Below are positions 2,807-58,834 of a DNA stretch of 64,000 bases, one piece after another (within the stretch, counting starts at the first letter, position 1; every line of letters starts with the position of its first letter). The notes beneath the pieces are model-generated. The model did no database searches, was not told the DNA's origin, and saw nothing but the letters and a program-made list of their open reading frames with translations. Source of the stretch: Pantoea sp. alder81 (GTDB taxonomy: Bacteria; Pseudomonadota; Gammaproteobacteria; Enterobacterales; Enterobacteriaceae); contig NZ_JAIUDA010000001.1 of NCBI RefSeq assembly GCF_020179835.1, positions 744,001 through 808,000 on the forward strand, given 5' to 3'. The position numbers and the translations under genes are program-made.

Positions 2807-5176
2807 TTACGCGTGCAACGGCAGCAGCAAAATAGCCAGCATCTGGCGTGCATTGGCGGGCAGGTCACCGCCGCCGGTATAACCGTTGTTCTCCACGATC
2901 ACCGAATTTAATCCCACCAGCCAGTCATAGATGTAATACGCAGTATGATTGGCGGGTGCGGCTGACAAGCGGGTTAAGCGCTGTCCCGGCGAGAAACTGA
3001 CGCTGGGCGCAGGCGGACGCGCGAAGATGGTTTGTCCGCGATTAACACGACTCTCCGGGCGCTCGCTCTCCGGGCGCTGCAGGAAGCCGAGCCAGGCGAC
3101 AAAATCACCCAACACCGTCATTGCGCGCGAGACCTGACGATCGGTCCGTGCTTCATGTGCGCTGGCCTGAGCATCCGGTTCATTAAGTGCGCTTTGCAGC
3201 TTATTCAACACCTTCAGGCGGAAGCTGGCGGTAATCAGCTCTTCCACCAGCATTTCCATGGTCGGTTTATCGACGTTCAGCAGTGCCAGCAAACTGCGGC
3301 TTTCCGGCAACTGGCGCAGGTGCTCAAGCCACAGCGCAAACACCTGCTGCGGGAACTGCTGATCGCGCTGACCACTGTTACGCGGTTCAGCGGGCGCAAC
3401 CGGCTCATCTTTGAACAGGTCAAATTCAAAGCCAATGCCAAAATAGCTCTGCTCAGCGGCTGCGGTCTTCGCACTGTGCTGCGCGACAGTGCCGCTGCTC
3501 TGGCTCAGCCACAGCTGGCGCACCGCTTCGCGCGAAGGCTGTAAACGCTCCAGCAGTTCGCCGTGCAGGCCGGTGCGATGCTGCAAGCACTTCAGCAAGG
3601 TGTCGGAAATCGCCTGCTTGCGTGCCGCCTGTTCTGGCGTGGCAGTGGATTCGGTCCACGGCTGCAAACGTTCGACCAGCTTCTGCTGCAAGGTGCTCAA
3701 CTGCTGGGCCAGACGATCACGACGCGCTTCCGGCTGCATCTCATCCTGCAGCCAGCTGCCCATGCGATCGACGCCAGCGCGATCCAGCGCCAGCATCGAG
3801 CCCCAGCTTTGTCCTGGTTGCCCAATCTGACGCTGCACGGCTTCATCAACATTAATCTGCTGCTGCTGATAGCGCGCATCGTGCGGCGTGATTGCCCAAA
3901 TCAGGCGGGGCTTCTCGCCGCTGGCCGCTACGGTTTGATGGATATGCCATTCGCGCAGTGCATTGACCGCAATGTCGGTATCCAGACGCTGGCTGGCGGC
4001 GGTACAGATCAGCATGAGATCGATGCCCTGACGCGCGGCATACAGTCCCGGCAACAGCGCACGTTTTTGCTCCAGCAGCGCCGCCCGCAGAGGATCGCGT
4101 TTGCGCAGCTGGGCTAAATCTTCTTGCTGACCCACGTCGGCAGGCTGGCCGGGCGCTGGCAGCTCCAGCATATCGGCTTCGTCATACAGCGCCTGGCGCG
4201 GTGTTGAATTCAGCGGAACGGTGATTTCAAGCGTCAGCAGCGCCAGCAGGCCCAGCGGCACAGGCTGCGGTTTACTGACACGATTGGCGACAATCGGGCA
4301 GACTTCTATCATTTCCTGCCAGTCAGCATCGTTGCTAATCAGTTTTTCCGCAGGCAGCGAGGCGTCATCGGTTAACAGGCTCAGCGGCGCGAGCAGGCGC
4401 GGCGCCTGACGCAGTTGATGGCGCAGGTGCATCAGATTACGCAGCTGTTCGTTTAGCGCCACCTGATTAGGCCACAGCAGCGAAAACAGCTGGATGCGGT
4501 CATCGACGTTTAACCACGGGGCAAGTTCCACCGCCTGCGGCCAGAAGTGGCGATCCAGCACCTCTGCATGACGATGCTGGCGGCGGCTCCACGCCCATAA
4601 CGTGATCAGCGCATCGCCGTCGAGGCCCGGCTGTGGCTCGTCCTGACGATGGCGCTGTAAACGCTGTAGCGCGGCATCGATCACTGCACTGTCTGGCTGC
4701 AATTCAGTTTTGGCACAGGCCAGCACCAGGCGAATCAACTCCACGTCATTGAGCAGCGTCATCTCCAGTGGCCAGGCGCTGGACTGCGTTTCACGCTGAT
4801 GGCTGAAGCGGGTGGCAATGGCAAAATCGAGATTGCCGGGATTGATGTTCTGGAAATGGTTCACGATTCTATCGCCCAGACGCGCCATGAGCTGGCCCTG
4901 CGCATCACCCACCATTTCACTCAACAGCCACGCTTTGCCCGCCTGTGACTGGCCAAACATCGCCAGCGTCACCGGACGTGCCAGTTGACGCGCCAGCGCA
5001 TGACTTTCCACGCGCGCGCGGCGCAGTTGCAGCCGCAGGGTGTCGGCTTCCAGTGCCAGACGCGGTGCCTGCGCCTGATGGGTTTCAATCCAGTTCAGTG
5101 CGCCGTCCAGCGTCTCCTGCATCAGGCTCAGACGTTTGGCGGGCGTAACAGAGGTGGCTCTTTTGGCAGTTCTCAT
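2807..5176 (-). CDS. srfC: SrfC-family virulence factor, P-loop-like protein
   Basis: A 789-residue protein matching the SrfC-type putative virulence factor family found next to SrfB. Near residue 75 there is a Walker A-like segment (MFGQSQAGKAWLL) in which the usual Ser/Thr after GK is Ala, so nucleotide binding is plausible but degenerate. The rest is rich in Leu, Gln and Arg, with long predicted helices and dynamin/GTPase-like spacing. No signal peptide or transmembrane helix is evident. Its start overlaps the srfB stop by 4 nt (ATGA), so the two are translationally coupled. The family was named from SsrB-regulated genes in Salmonella; its molecular role is not settled. Confidence 0.85.
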   Translation of the reverse strand: MRTAKRATSVTPAKRLSLMQETLDGALNWIETHQAQAPRLALEADTLRLQLRRARVESHALARQLARPVTLAMFGQSQAGKAWLLSEMVGDAQGQLMARLGDRIVNHFQNINPGNLDFAIATRFSHQRETQSSAWPLEMTLLNDVELIRLVLACAKTELQPDSAVIDAALQRLQRHRQDEPQPGLDGDALITLWAWSRRQHRHAEVLDRHFWPQAVELAPWLNVDDRIQLFSLLWPNQVALNEQLRNLMHLRHQLRQAPRLLAPLSLLTDDASLPAEKLISNDADWQEMIEVCPIVANRVSKPQPVPLGLLALLTLEITVPLNSTPRQALYDEADMLELPAPGQPADVGQQEDLAQLRKRDPLRAALLEQKRALLPGLYAARQGIDLMLICTAASQRLDTDIAVNALREWHIHQTVAASGEKPRLIWAITPHDARYQQQQINVDEAVQRQIGQPGQSWGSMLALDRAGVDRMGSWLQDEMQPEARRDRLAQQLSTLQQKLVERLQPWTESTATPEQAARKQAISDTLLKCLQHRTGLHGELLERLQPSREAVRQLWLSQSSGTVAQHSAKTAAAEQSYFGIGFEFDLFKDEPVAPAEPRNSGQRDQQFPQQVFALWLEHLRQLPESRSLLALLNVDKPTMEMLVEELITASFRLKVLNKLQSALNEPDAQASAHEARTDRQVSRAMTVLGDFVAWLGFLQRPESERPESRVNRGQTIFARPPAPSVSFSPGQRLTRLSAAPANHTAYYIYDWLVGLNSVIVENNGYTGGGDLPANARQMLAILLLPLHA

Positions 5177-55268: not shown

Positions 55269-55691
55269 ATGTTGTATACCTCGGGACGTTCAGCGTTTGC
55301 GGTGGGGCTTTACGCTCTGCTGGAACCGCTACCGCTGGGCTTTTTTGTTGCAGCCTGGCTGTTTGATATCATCTATCTGCAAACCTTCGTCATCATGTGG
55401 ACCAAATCAGCCAGTTGGTTGATTGCTATCGGTCTGGTGCTCGCCATCCTGCCAAGATTAATCAGTCTTGTTTACTTATTTCGCGGCCCTTATCCCAGTG
55501 AGAAGACCCATTTCTGGCTGTCACTCCTGGCCATCGTCGTGGCTATCGCAAATGCCTTCATTCACAGTCGTGATGCGTATGCCGTGGTACCGCTAGGGGT
55601 AACGCTATCGACTCTGGTGGTGGCACTGCTGTTGCTCGCCAACGTGCAGTTAGCGCTGCGTGGACGCACCACAGCAGGAGGTCGCGCATGA
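55269..55691 (+). CDS. DUF2231-like four-helix membrane protein
   Basis: A 140-residue integral membrane protein with four hydrophobic segments: LPLGFFVAAWLFDIIYL, ASWLIAIGLVLAILPRLISLVYLF, FWLSLLAIVVAIANAFIHSRDA and VPLGVTLSTLVVALLLLANVQL. The HSRDA motif and topology fit DUF2231 proteins, which often sit beside redox enzymes such as sorbosone-type dehydrogenases and may be heme or quinone linked. GGGAGAG precedes the ATG. The stop overlaps the start of the PQQ-type dehydrogenase by 4 nt. Function is unknown; an electron-acceptor role for the partner is a hypothesis. Confidence 0.75.
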   Translation: MLYTSGRSAFAVGLYALLEPLPLGFFVAAWLFDIIYLQTFVIMWTKSASWLIAIGLVLAILPRLISLVYLFRGPYPSEKTHFWLSLLAIVVAIANAFIHSRDAYAVVPLGVTLSTLVVALLLLANVQLALRGRTTAGGRA

Positions 55692-56980
55692 AACAGATTC
55701 TGAGTGCAGTGACCCTCGCTATGCTTCTCAGCGCCTGTGATGATGGCGCACTGATCGATCCGCAAAAACAGATTGGCCCCAATCCTGAACTCCCCCAGGC
55801 GCAAAACTTCTTCGTACCGCCGATGCAGGTGCCGGAGGGTATCCCATGGAAAGCCGGTGAAATGCCAAAAGTGGCGGACGGGCTGAAGATTGAAAAGATC
55901 GCGGATAACTTACAGCATCCACGTCAGGTATTAGTGTTGCCGAACAATGATGTGCTGGTGGCCGAATCCAACGGCACACCGAAACCCACTACCGCGCCGA
56001 AAGATCTCATTACCGGCCTCGTGAAAAATGCTTCGGGCAAAGGCGGGGCGGGCGGCAATCGCATCACGCTGTTGCGTAATGTGAACGGCAAGTGGGAGCA
56101 ACATCGATTTATCGATAACCTGACCGCGCCGTTTGGCATGCAGCTGGTGGGCAATACGTTGTATGTTGCCAACGCCGATAGCCTGGTGAAATTCCCGTAT
56201 GAAACCGGACAAACTGAGATTCGTACGCCGCCCGTGGTGGTGACTGAACTGCCCGGCGGGCCGATTAACCATCACTGGACTAAGTCACTGCTGGCCAGCC
56301 CCGACGGCAGCAAGCTGTACGTCGGGGTAGGATCGAACAGTAACATTACGGAAAATGGCATTGGTGCCGAATATCGTCGAGCGGCGGTACTCGAAGTCGA
56401 TGCGGCGAGCGGTGCCAGCCGTATCTATGCCAGTGGGCTGCGCAACCCCACCGGTCTGCAATGGGAGCCGCAAACGGGCAAGCTGTGGGCGATCGTCAAT
56501 GAACGTGACGAGATTGGCTCGGATCTGGTGCCGGATTATATGACCTCGGTGCAGGACAAAGGCTTCTATGGCTGGCCGTACAGCTATTATGGCCAACATG
56601 TCGATGTGCGGGCGCAGCCACAGCGGCCTGACTTAGTAGATAAAGCCATCAAGCCAGATTACGCGCTCAGTTCGCACGTGGCACCGCTCGGCCTGCTGTT
56701 CTATGGCGCTGACAACATGCCGCAGTATCGTGGTGGGGCGTTTATTAGTGAGCACGGCAGCTGGAACCGCACGCCGTTGAATGGCTATCAGGTGGTGTGG
56801 GTGAAATTCGAAAACGGCAAACCGGTTGGGCAGCCACAGCCGGTGGTCACGGGATTCCTGACCGATGACCAAAAACAGGTACGGGGCTTACCGGTGGGAC
56901 TGGCGTCAGATCAGCAGGGCGGTGTGCTGATCGCGGATGATGCCGGTAATGCCATTTGGCGTATCAGCTCTGCCAACTGA
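55688..56980 (+). CDS. PQQ-dependent sugar dehydrogenase lipoprotein, L-sorbosone dehydrogenase family
   Basis: A 430-residue periplasmic lipoprotein with lipobox LLSAC (Cys17) and a six-bladed propeller of the soluble glucose/sorbosone dehydrogenase fold. Signature parts are LQHPRQVLVLPNNDVLVAE, INHHWTKSLLASPDGSKLYVGVGSNSN, ASGLRNPTGLQWEP, GKLWAIVNERDEIGSDLVPDY and KGFYGWPYSYYGQHVD. SEHGSWNRTPLNGY and RGLPVGLASDQQGGVLIADD are also present. Family members use PQQ and Ca2+ to oxidise aldoses or sorbosone. It is coupled to the DUF2231-like membrane gene. The same window encodes PQQ synthesis, so cofactor supply is assured. Confidence 0.87.
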   Translation: MKQILSAVTLAMLLSACDDGALIDPQKQIGPNPELPQAQNFFVPPMQVPEGIPWKAGEMPKVADGLKIEKIADNLQHPRQVLVLPNNDVLVAESNGTPKPTTAPKDLITGLVKNASGKGGAGGNRITLLRNVNGKWEQHRFIDNLTAPFGMQLVGNTLYVANADSLVKFPYETGQTEIRTPPVVVTELPGGPINHHWTKSLLASPDGSKLYVGVGSNSNITENGIGAEYRRAAVLEVDAASGASRIYASGLRNPTGLQWEPQTGKLWAIVNERDEIGSDLVPDYMTSVQDKGFYGWPYSYYGQHVDVRAQPQRPDLVDKAIKPDYALSSHVAPLGLLFYGADNMPQYRGGAFISEHGSWNRTPLNGYQVVWVKFENGKPVGQPQPVVTGFLTDDQKQVRGLPVGLASDQQGGVLIADDAGNAIWRISSAN

Positions 56981-56994
56981 TTTCTGCAGGCAAT

Positions 56995-57032
56995 AAAAAA
57001 GGACTTGGCTTGATAGCCAAATCCTTTTTTTA
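56995..57032. terminator. Bidirectional terminator between the PQQ dehydrogenase and the istR-like sRNA
   Basis: GGACTTGGCT (57001-57010) and AGCCAAATCC (57015-57024) are flanked by A6 and T7 runs. In plus-strand RNA one pair is a C-A mismatch. In minus-strand RNA the same position is a U-G wobble, so the hairpin is stronger for the minus-strand transcript. Confidence 0.85.
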
Positions 57033-57089
57033 TGTTCGCTAACCGGCTGGTAACCGCGCTGCGAACGGGGTGCTCAGCACTCCTCACAA
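56995..57089 (-). ncRNA. istR: IstR-like antisense small RNA (antitoxin)
   Basis: A predicted small RNA of about 95 nt on the minus strand. A near-consensus sigma70 promoter reads TTGAAA (57118-57123), a 17-bp spacer, then TATGAT (57095-57100), which places transcription start near 57088. The RNA would run into the T-ended hairpin at 57024-56995. Its 5' end contains 18 nt (57089-57072) perfectly complementary to 57267-57284 in the leader of the TisB-like gene. In E. coli IstR-1 has the same divergent position and pairs the same way to block the ribosome standby site. The primary sequence is not obviously conserved. Confidence 0.75.
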
Positions 57090-57137
57090 AGCAAATCATA
57101 AAATGTGCGGGGGAATATTTCAAGTTTCGCAAAAGTA

Positions 57138-57153
57138 CTGTATGGTTATACAG
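57138..57153 (+). promoter_or_regulatory. LexA (SOS) box of the tisB-like gene
   Basis: CTGTATGGTTATACAG is a perfect CTGT-N8-ACAG LexA operator, flanked by TA at the 5' side. It lies about 210 bp upstream of the toxin ATG, as expected for the long untranslated leader of tisB. Confidence 0.88.
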
Positions 57154-57266
57154 GTGTTGAGTGGCGAGCGCAGTCTCATTGTTTTCTGATGACTCCCAGG
57201 GGCGCGGATTGTCAAATCCCGGCAGGTTTCAGGTGGTGCTGGCCTGTGGCTTCCACAATGAGTGGC

Positions 57267-57353
57267 GCTCAGCACTCCTCACAATTGTGCTTAGGCCATC
57301 GGCGGGTGGAGTCAAAGCCCCGGTAGCCGAAAGACGCGCTCCTGTCAGAGGAG
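57267..57353 (+). promoter_or_regulatory. tisB-like leader: antisense target and sequestered ribosome site
   Basis: GCTCAGCACTCCTCACAA at 57267-57284 is identical to 57072-57089 in the divergent sRNA gene, so the two RNAs are complementary over 18 nt. It sits inside an extended fold closed by GGCCT (57241-57245) and AGGCC (57293-57297). Nearer the start, CTCCT (57339-57343) pairs with AGGAG (57349-57353) and would hide the Shine-Dalgarno, making translation depend on an upstream standby site. Confidence 0.75.
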
Positions 57354-57363
57354 AAGGAAAGTG

Positions 57364-57453
57364 ATGGAACTTGTTCGATTGCTCCTGGACCTGGTCCGGG
57401 TCGTCCTGCAAATCATCGTTGCCCTTTTGCAACTGACCGGTCAGGCGCACTGA
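57364..57453 (+). CDS. tisB: TisB-like SOS-induced membrane toxin peptide
   Basis: A 29-residue peptide too short for routine gene calling. It begins MELVRLLLDLVRVVLQ and continues IIVALLQLTGQAH. It is one amphipathic hydrophobic helix with spaced Arg and Asp and the IVALLQL block that parallels LIVAALQLL of E. coli TisB, also 29 residues. TisB inserts in the inner membrane, dissipates the proton motive force and promotes persistence after DNA damage. ATG 57364 has AGGAGAAGGA upstream, partly locked in a hairpin. A LexA box, an antisense sRNA and a terminator surround it. Only this context makes the assignment strong. Confidence 0.82.
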   Translation: MELVRLLLDLVRVVLQIIVALLQLTGQAH

Positions 57454-57469
57454 CCGGAACTTGAAACAA

Positions 57470-57496
57470 GGCGGAGCTTACCCCTCCGCCTTTTTT
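57470..57496 (+). terminator. Terminator of the tisB-like gene
   Basis: GGCGGAG and CTCCGCC form a 7-bp stem with a 7-nt loop followed by six Ts, 16 nt after the toxin stop codon. Confidence 0.9.
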
Positions 57497-57646
57497 CGTT
57501 AGTTTCACCAGGTGATTTTTTCTCAATGCCTGTAGTTACCTTCCGGCACTAAATTCTCTTTGCCATTCAGTGAAAATGTGATTATCAGCTTAGCTAACTT
57601 ATGTTATGAATTTAGTCTTAGAAAAATATAATCAGGTAAAGGTTTT

Positions 57647-58834
57647 ATGTCGTCGCAAAAATTGTCCAACAGCGTTCAACGCATTCATTCATCTGCCATT
57701 CGTGATTTATTGAAACACAGCAAAATGGAAGGGGTGATCTCACTCGGTGGCGGTATCCCTAATCCGGATCTGTTTGATACCGAAGGCCTGCAGATTGCGA
57801 TGGATCGTGCGTTATCGCAGGATGGCCACAACGCGTTTCAGTATGGCTTGAGTGAAGGGGATCCGCTGTTACGTGAAGCGATCTGCCGCATTTCAGCCGA
57901 CCGCGGTATTGATTGCACGCCGGACGACGTTGTAATCACCTCTGGCTCACAGCAATCACTGGATATTCTCGCCCGTGCCTTGATCAACCCAGGCGACATT
58001 GTGGTCGTTGAGCGTCCAACTTATCTTGCCGCATTGCAGGTTTTCCAGCTGGCTGAAGCGCAGTTCAAATCTGTAGGTACTGACGGCGAAGGCATGATTG
58101 TCGATGAGCTGGAAGAGTTGGTTAAACAGACGCCCATTAAAGCCGTCTATATTGTACCGACCTTTGGCAACCCAAGCGGCGTCACCTTATCTGATGCGCG
58201 TCGTCAGCAGTTAGTCGCGCTGTCGAAACAGTATGACTTCCTGATTTTTGAAGACGATCCCTACAGCGAGATTAACTTCACCAACCAGACTTTCCGCCCG
58301 CTGAAATCCCACGCGCAAGCCATGGGTGCCAGCGAGAATGTGATTTATACCTCGACCTTCTCTAAAATCCTGGCGCCGGGCGCACGCGTTGGTTGGATCA
58401 CCATGCCGGGCTGGTTGAAGTCATCGGTGGTGAACCTGAAGCAGGCAACGGATCTGCATACCAGTTCATTGTCGCAGTCTATGACGCGTCATTATCTGGA
58501 AACGGGGCGTTTACCGGAGCAGATTAAATTGATCCGTGCGGCCTACAAACAGAAGTGTGATGCGCTGTGTACGGCACTTGAGACAGAGCTGGGCGACCGG
58601 CTGCACTTCTATCGTCCGCTGGGCGGGATGTTCCTGTGGGCAACCTTCAAAGAAGCGTTCAACACCACAGAATGGCTGAAAACCACCCTGAGCAACGGCG
58701 TGGTGTATGTGCCGGGTGAGTTCTTCTACTGTGATAATCCGGATACTTCAACGCTGCGTATTTCGTATGCCTCAGTATCAGAAACCAATCTGGCCGTGGC
58801 AGCACAGCGCTTGAAAGCCTCATTACCGCAGTAA
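57647..58834 (+). CDS. PLP-dependent aminotransferase, class I (2-aminoadipate/LysN-like group)
   Basis: A 395-residue fold-type I aminotransferase. Motifs are ISLGGGIPNPDLFD, FQYGLSEGDPLLREAI, ITSGSQQSLDILARALINPGD, YIVPTFGNPSGVTLS, FEDDPYSEINF and the PLP Lys in TSTFSKILAPGARVGWI, with the late Arg in TLRISYASV. This matches MocR-like/2-aminoadipate aminotransferases that take varied amino acids with 2-oxoglutarate. It stands alone, with AGGT upstream of ATG 57647 and a hairpin after the stop. The substrate is unknown. Confidence 0.88.
   Translation: MSSQKLSNSVQRIHSSAIRDLLKHSKMEGVISLGGGIPNPDLFDTEGLQIAMDRALSQDGHNAFQYGLSEGDPLLREAICRISADRGIDCTPDDVVITSGSQQSLDILARALINPGDIVVVERPTYLAALQVFQLAEAQFKSVGTDGEGMIVDELEELVKQTPIKAVYIVPTFGNPSGVTLSDARRQQLVALSKQYDFLIFEDDPYSEINFTNQTFRPLKSHAQAMGASENVIYTSTFSKILAPGARVGWITMPGWLKSSVVNLKQATDLHTSSLSQSMTRHYLETGRLPEQIKLIRAAYKQKCDALCTALETELGDRLHFYRPLGGMFLWATFKEAFNTTEWLKTTLSNGVVYVPGEFFYCDNPDTSTLRISYASVSETNLAVAAQRLKASLPQ

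Follow-up and report, generated by a model that had tools for sequence, protein, structure and literature searches.

In Pantoea sp. alder81, the gap that separates a glucose/sorbosone dehydrogenase-like gene (55688-56980) from a class I/II aminotransferase gene (57647-58834) very probably contains a tisB/istR-1-like type I toxin-antitoxin module that is chromosomal and under SOS control. All positions refer to the window, that is, the whole stretch of 64,000 nucleotides that was analysed. Judged from its sequence, the locus is most likely a distant homologue of tisB/istR-1, and the unannotated gap is a candidate for a tisB/istR-type branch that is unseen by family models and deviates at a key residue of the toxin. 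The tisB/istR-like interpretation, first proposed in a sequence-only reading, is supported by co-change of the antisense tail of a small RNA (sRNA) with its target, by the offset of a pseudoknot helix (S2), by the spacing of the leader element GGTGGTGC and by the similarity of toxin profiles. Among SOS dormancy toxins, TisB has been studied the most; the diverged branch described here, together with a LexA-less branch often found on plasmids, constitutes a natural data set on tisB/istR evolution, and comparison of the branches shows which parts of the toxin and of the RNAs can vary.

Organization of the locus

A LexA box (CTGTATGGTTATACAG) is present on the plus strand at 57138-57153. It had been described as perfect at this place; the place holds, and perfection extends only to the CTGT-N8-ACAG core, the 20-base consensus TACTGTATATATATACAGTA giving no match even when three mismatches are allowed. 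A sigma-70-like TTGAAA-17-TATGAT promoter was recovered by motif scan on the minus strand at 57123-57095, as previously read (one found against 0.5 expected in shuffles), and the CTGT-N8-ACAG core occurs twice in the window against 0.82 expected. By themselves, box and promoter are not above chance and prove little; the locus as a whole is above chance because box, reading frame and tail/target pairing are conserved in 34 loci. The second core match in the window (CTGTGCTGCGCGACAG, 3474-3489) has a GC-rich core and is probably fortuitous. Across the whole genome, CTGTATNNNNATACAG is found at only 6 sites, with 0 in the control. The recA box of the same genome (CTGTATGGTCATACAG), about 70 nt before the recA ATG, is one base off the window's box, another CTGTATNNNNATACAG site lies just upstream of yebG, and the sixth is the window's own box; near the site at L214, no ORF of at least 70 codons was found to start. 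Two more of the six sites, perfect LexA boxes at L216 and L217 (C13:13567 and C30:421623), precede proteins of about 77-79 aa that start MPRDYEI, are similar to each other, carry no NCBIfam name and are candidate SOS genes.

Divergently from the box, a candidate IstR-1-like sRNA gene of about 94 nt occupies 56995-57088 on the minus strand, its start being read from the promoter and its end from a terminator-like hairpin. The latter is an inverted repeat at 56995-57030 with T runs flanking both sides, which may also end the transcript of the upstream gene; the terminator was listed on the plus strand only, and the minus-strand reading (stem, then TTTTTTATT) is our own. The antisense tail of the sRNA (57069-57089, minus strand) and its target in the toxin leader (57264-57284, plus strand), the presumed ribosome standby region, form a direct repeat of 21 nt with one mismatch. 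Within it, the exact 18-nt complementarity originally noted between sRNA and leader was confirmed (57072-57089 on the sRNA side), and computation of the pairing, which had been suggested as a check, predicted a duplex of -39.2 kcal/mol. Speaking against a free standby region, minimum-energy folding leaves the target only 51-59% unpaired, by a method that does not allow for pseudoknots. A further sRNA hairpin, CGG-UUACCAG-CCG (57044-57056, minus strand), displays an ACCA loop that is also found in E. coli IstR-1, so that the sequence-predicted RNA shows the IstR-type layout of divergent sRNA, leader-complementary 5' tail, ACCA hairpin and terminator.

The predicted toxin mRNA would run on the plus strand from about 57160 to a terminator-like hairpin with a T run (57463-57497). 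Its leader, about 200 nt between the LexA-type box and the ORF, contains, all on the plus strand, the putative 5' arm of S2 (GCAGGU, 57222-57227), GGTGGTGC (57232-57239), the putative 3' arm of S2 (GCCUGU, 57242-57247), the sRNA target and, at 57339-57353, a CUCCU/AGGAG hairpin. The latter, first read as locking the Shine-Dalgarno (SD) sequence, is present as a sequence match and would sequester it. The 29-codon ORF reported at 57364-57453 is likewise present and encodes a hydrophobic 29-aa peptide (MELVRLLLDLVRVVLQIIVALLQLTGQAH), a TisB-like candidate toxin.

Conservation among relatives

A search with the 516-base locus gave a match in 34 of 60 genomes, namely in the genome itself and in 33 of 35 genomes of the same genus, with 0 of 24 in genomes of other families; the expected conservation in relatives was thus borne out. 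The nearest relative is L002, at 98%. With the related profile A3, 55 of 61 genomes of the genus gave a match; because four of the six that lack one are no larger than 2.9 Mb (one of these four being 74% complete), absence of the locus partly tracks genome reduction. A degenerate pattern of the ORF core, run over the named contigs, recovered 47 stretches, mostly from Pantoea and also from Erwinia sp. S63, [Erwinia] mediterraneensis, Erwinia piriflorinigrans, Winslowiella, Chimaeribacter californicus and Sodalis sp. dw_96; two stretches titled Enterobacter look misnamed. Searching the genus of G162 (4 genomes) and that of G361 (6 genomes) yielded no further loci. Among the 30 loci tested for neighbours, from which the short L031-L034 were left out, the upstream neighbour is common to 25 and the downstream one to 4. 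Just downstream of one intact locus lies a 92-base near-duplicate of the toxin 3' end and terminator (L016/L035, G030:C1:2046990-2047081).

The 34 loci were aligned for counts of box, tail/target and frame. CTGTA-N6-TACA is found in all 34 and the exact CTGT-N8-ACAG in 28, while the 29-codon frame, whose conservation had been put forward as a test, is open in 34/34 without stop or indel. Variable sites in the ORF fall on codon positions 3, 1 and 2 in the proportion 20/15/4, with a crude pN/pS of 0.21 over the 34 loci, a codon pattern that is purifying as far as the aligned sequences tell. In L025 the stop is lost and the ORF reaches 38 aa, and in L009 an ATT, immediately preceded by an in-frame GTG, replaces the ATG.

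Tail and target agree at 16 or 17 of 17 positions in 34/34 aligned loci, so that the match is kept in related strains though its sequence has changed several times. The variants CTCCTCACA, CTCATCACA (L015, L016) and CTCTCCACA (L017 and others) are each present in both copies of the repeat, as are ATTCCTCACA (L031) and ATTCCTCACC (L034) in tail and target alike; the sites of co-change are CCTC/CATC/CTCC, CAC/CAT and the terminal CACC. The two copies are identical over 17 positions in 15/34 loci and show one difference in 19/34, at the eighth position in 18 and at the fourth in L002. Seven of these 19 differences are G-U compatible and 12 are not, which leaves one unpaired position in 12/34, a point against the proposed pairing. 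Copying from repeat to repeat could also keep tail and target alike, and the pairing would be kept in that case too. Under a strict rule, the ACCA hairpin is found in 18 of 24 distinct window-type sRNA rows; five of the other six have an ACCC loop, and L029 has ACCA with a poor stem.

Predicted folding of the leader

In 33 of the 34 window-type loci, GGTGGTGC lies 91-96 nt past the start of the LexA box (94 here), L014 having GATGGTGC in its place; in 49 classic loci the distance is 90-102 nt, with 98 nt in E. coli. As placed here from the numbering in PMC7708055, GGTGGTGC sits in the 3' arm of E. coli stem S1. The E. coli tisB pseudoknot is described as essential for standby translation (Romilly et al., PMC7708055), and its helix S2, in which nt 73-77 pair with nt 53-57, as backed by compensatory mutants at G57/C74 and neighbours (PMC7708055).

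A corresponding S2 was sought by anchoring leaders gap-free on the GGTGGTGC-type element and comparing twelve registers. Identical 60-nt cores had been collapsed to 86 rows, with the relics L093 and L097 as well as L046, L047 and L112 omitted from the set; the S2 test used 84 of the 86 and omitted L095 and L098, in which a 3-nt deletion shifts the register. The 26 distinct cores comprise 9 window-type, 2 classic, 14 branch-B and 1 Chimaeribacter sequence. Across them, 94.2% of cells are paired in the S2 register against 21.8-67.3% in the eleven other registers, and 0 of 20,000 shuffles reach the observed pairing; own arms are 94% paired versus 61% when arms are swapped between branches, all of these percentages being inflated by kinship among the sequences. 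Each position shows up to five pair types, for instance C-G, U-A, U-G, G-C and G-U at offset -9/+14 and C-G, A-U, U-G and U-A at -8/+13. Arms as different as GCUG/CAGC, GCAGG/CCUGU, ACCGG/CCGGU, AUCAG/CUGAU and AUUAG/UUGAU are found at one offset, which, from the sequences, would be difficult to explain unless a helix forms. As evidence against it, just three of six positions pair in L206; L115, L143, L210 and E. coli pair five of six. Within the genus alone, S2 is nearly invariant, has no two-sided changes and does no better than shuffles; the co-change between branches nonetheless lends phylogenetic backing to the experimental tisB pseudoknot.

The putative SD hairpin is paired in 99.4% of cells in the 34 loci, with four of its five pairs invariant; within the genus it too shows no two-sided changes and does not beat shuffles. 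Two-sided changes were seen, by eye, only between branches (CUUCC/GGAAG in L101 and CUCCC/GGGAG in L144). The predicted unpaired probability of the SD is 0.23-0.57.

The peptide and its probable kinship with TisB

The supposition that routine family models would miss the locus proved correct, as PF13939, TIGR04459, NF011340 and RF01400 are all without a match. The window peptide gives no match to the three protein models up to E 10; E. coli TisB matches all three, and the best PF13939 match in the window genome (E 0.9) is at another place. On L001, L020 and L030, RF01400 does not appear at E values up to 10, the E. coli locus scoring 150.1 bits, and Rfam over 50-64 kb plus four loci gave, besides E. 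coli istR, only matches under gathering scores. Profile comparison, by contrast with these models, joins the two toxins: A1, whose 20 rows are the 22 distinct peptides less those of L009 and L025, aligned to A2 by hhalign with a probability of 90.5% and, as one comparison, E 1.4e-6 over 17 columns, the core being LQIIVALLQL versus LKLIVAALQL. PF13939 run over 392 genomes of the GTDB family matched 83, 76 of them above the cut-off; 50 of the PF13939-matching loci were oriented for leader comparison, L093 and L097 being relics. L097 (G011:C11, ~354830), which belongs to the same genus as the window, is what remains of a classic tisB locus, with a toxin-like ORF and a terminator-like hairpin; a LexA box and a GGTGGTGC leader were looked for there and not found.

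Only 2 of 5,000 shuffles reach the amphipathic moment of the first 24 residues of the window peptide, compared with 85/5,000 for E. coli TisB and 1,688/5,000 for a branch-B peptide. K12 of E. coli TisB is described as essential, K12L, K12D and K12R all losing activity (PMC11449926). The window-type position aligned with it is Q16, invariant in the 20 rows of A1; the toxin is therefore a variant, to which the action of the E. coli peptide is not transferable unexamined. Q23, the counterpart of the essential TisB Q19, is invariant in 20/20 A1 rows, and an invariant R12 lies one turn before Q16. L095 (G363) and L098 (G394) are second classic-type TisB loci with LexA boxes and Q at the K12 position. 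Since they also carry Q, the exchange of K12 for Q occurs naturally, and they are possible intermediates towards the window type.

A branch without recognisable LexA boxes

Relatives termed branch B are often found on plasmids, and some copies are chromosomal; examples are Pantoea agglomerans NZ_CP090210, Klebsiella pneumoniae NZ_MN319465, Mixta hanseatica NZ_CP082905 and Serratia sp. NZ_CP074138. They share with the window type the divergent sRNA, the tail/target repeat, GGTGG[T/A]GC and the S2 helix, and their peptide of about 31 aa has a QLTG-type core; they differ in a GTG start, in having no recognisable LexA box, in their antisense sequences and in being mobile. The search with the B-type peptide gave 27 plasmid records (Providencia 11, Pantoea 5, Klebsiella 4, Serratia 2, and one each from Mixta, Erwinia, Proteus, Escherichia and Citrobacter), of which the first 13 rows are without an annotated feature and the other 14 are annotated as hypothetical protein in a gene table that is incomplete. 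The window locus, by DNA search, and the window peptide, by tblastn, gave no match in plasmid records. In 17 B rows, the divergent sRNA region, the tail/target repeat and GGTGG[T/A]GC are all kept. In B, the interval from sRNA to leader scores at best -8.7 to 5.0 for a LexA box, versus 18-26 in 68 window-type and classic rows, a matrix built from the boxes of the latter making their high scores partly circular and leaving the low B scores unaffected; the 95th percentile of shuffled B promoters is 4.0, and three B rows are slightly above it. The branch pattern would fit an addiction-type use on plasmids and a stress-type use on chromosomes.

Some copies depart from this plan. L101 (Winslowiella arboricola; 4840 and 5517) holds tandem tisB-like modules 677 nt apart and without a LexA box, whose antisense sequences differ and each best match their own leader. 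In L112 (Pantoea sp. BAV 3049), a branch-B copy, a deletion seems to join the sRNA gene to the toxin leader, and neither a tail/target repeat nor GGTGGTGC was found. In L046 (G178:C1), probably a decayed copy, the branch-B toxin frame overruns the usual stop, and no usual start codon lies close to the SD.

Discussion

These observations permit a model in which LexA would keep the plus-strand promoter shut until DNA damage opens it. By analogy with E. coli, folding of the leader would lock the SD in its hairpin, and translation would need a standby site about 80 nt upstream that would adjoin an H-type pseudoknot. The divergent, constitutive sRNA of about 94 nt would cover the standby stretch with its 5' tail and block ribosome loading, so that leaky toxin transcripts would remain silent; once induced mRNA exceeds the sRNA, the 29-aa amphipathic peptide might enter the inner membrane and slow the cell. 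Transcription, 5' processing, standby and membrane depolarisation are inferred from E. coli, and toxicity and a role in persistence are extrapolated from it. That the locus works like tisB/istR is better supported than that its product is TisB, because TisB models fail and the essential lysine is missing.

The sRNA may further contact the leader at a second place. Its ACCA loop could pair with the UGGU of GGUGGUGC, taken as the S1 3' arm, and, by mimicking the S1 5' arm, might pry the standby pseudoknot open. Under a strict search, 39 of 44 distinct classic rows have an sRNA hairpin whose loop of seven bases shows an invariant CCA between varying flanks, although the loop parse is ambiguous for a few classic rows, four of which show G at loop position 3 and a TTG/CAA stem. 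Of the remainder, L082 and L095 show ACCA within loops of a different length, and in L091, L092 and L094 the terminator loop contains CACCA. In a clade whose leader carries GGUGGAGC/GGTGGAGC, the internal hairpin loop is UCCA; GGTGGAGC is found in six distinct B loci (L103, L115 = L178, L201, L207, L208 and L209), in which the presumed 5' side of S1 reads CUCC or AUCC for ACC and, by eye, seems to co-change. However, the terminator loop of L209 is still ACCA, which speaks against the second contact, and ACCC loops facing an unchanged leader element argue that the fourth pair is not strictly required. The six GGTGGAGC loci share one antisense sequence, hence are probably one clade and one event. 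A second, independent GGTGGAGC/UCCA exchange was not found, the 77 of 392 genomes that match the classic core with at most two mismatches all having T, and viral contigs gave no match to a branch-B-like core. In the available text, the sole pairing described for IstR-1 is that of its 21-nt complementarity with the 5' UTR (PMC7708055, PMC4147584, PMC11228461, PMC11295053), and no literature on stem-loop kissing between istR-1 and tisB was found. On the sequences compared, the second contact may be taken as a testable lead from one clade. The wider proposal, that a bipartite antitoxin touching its leader with both ACCA loop and tail is common to the superfamily, E. coli IstR-1 included, and that tisB perhaps derives from LexA-less plasmid modules, or the reverse, is tentative and somewhat doubtful. 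Under it, the tisB LexA box would have been gained on the chromosome after a plasmid origin, or the order would be reversed. If true, the second contact applies to E. coli K-12 too. The two branches, taken as a data set, also make it answerable how a toxin came under SOS control, whether plasmid maintenance turned into a stress response or the reverse. In L047 (G343, the GTDB genus of Chimaeribacter californicus), a divergent module, the repeat CCGTTGAGCCAGTCTTCAC directly follows a GTGGTG-like element, as if both sRNA contacts were fused.

Other explanations of the locus must be weighed against an SOS-controlled module of the tisB/istR-1 type. The RNA logic could be as described while the peptide is a mild membrane modulator and not a dormancy toxin; DinQ, for instance, has been described as a small SOS membrane peptide. 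This would agree with Q16 standing in place of TisB K12 and with the lack of amphipathicity in the related branch-B peptide, but all 34 loci retain the LexA box, the SD hairpin and the sRNA match, an indication that expression comes at a cost, the window peptide itself is strongly amphipathic with Q23 invariant, and classic-type TisB homologues with Q at K12 and a LexA box do exist (L095, L098), so that such a role is judged unlikely. It is also conceivable, at a slightly lower probability, that an SOS type I module was invented separately and merely resembles tisB/istR. Convergence of this sort could explain why the antisense sequences are unrelated to those of E. coli, why the neighbours differ and why family models fail; it would leave to coincidence the common GGTGGTGC, the S2 offset, the LexA spacing, the ACCA hairpin and the similar toxin profile, and L144 together with L095/L098 partly bridges the two lineages.

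Least probable by far is an assembly of decayed or chance motifs without function. LexA-like cores and sigma-70-like promoters do arise by chance, and relics are found in related genomes (L097, L112, L046), yet the parts of this locus are conserved in 34 loci, its pairing partners co-change and its codon pattern is purifying. A module related to tisB/istR-1 thus remains the preferred interpretation.

TisB has been stated to occur only within Enterobacteriaceae (PMC11449926, available text). Among the titles and abstract beginnings listed in a literature search, with subscription papers outside its scope, none reports tisB/istR in Pantoea or Erwinia, and a paper on hok in Erwinia amylovora cites TisB, in the available text, for comparison only (PMC7821729). 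Among known systems, timP/TimR of Salmonella is also of type I, and its leader is described as needing a pseudoknot that the sRNA disrupts (PMC11228461); it differs in its 38-aa toxin (PMC11295053) and its leader, LexA control goes unmentioned in the available text of both papers (PMC11228461, PMC11295053), and the likeness is one of description only. The same holds for zorO/OrzO and shoB/OhsC, which are called non-homologous to tisB but in which the sRNA is reported to bind far upstream of a sequestered ribosome-binding site and pseudoknots are predicted (PMC7708055). From E. coli K-12 tisB/istR-1 (L038, NC_000913), the window locus differs in its antisense sequence and neighbours, and its toxin in lacking K12 and in its C-terminus. 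The two nevertheless have in common the divergent layout, the LexA box, an SD predicted to lie in a CUCCU(G)/(C)AGGAG hairpin, a long leader whose sRNA target precedes the start codon by about 80-95 nt, the spacing of GGTGGTGC (98 nt in E. coli versus 94 nt here), S2 at an equal offset, a 29-aa peptide with an L-K/Q-x-I-V-A-x-L-Q-L core and an sRNA hairpin with an ACCA loop.
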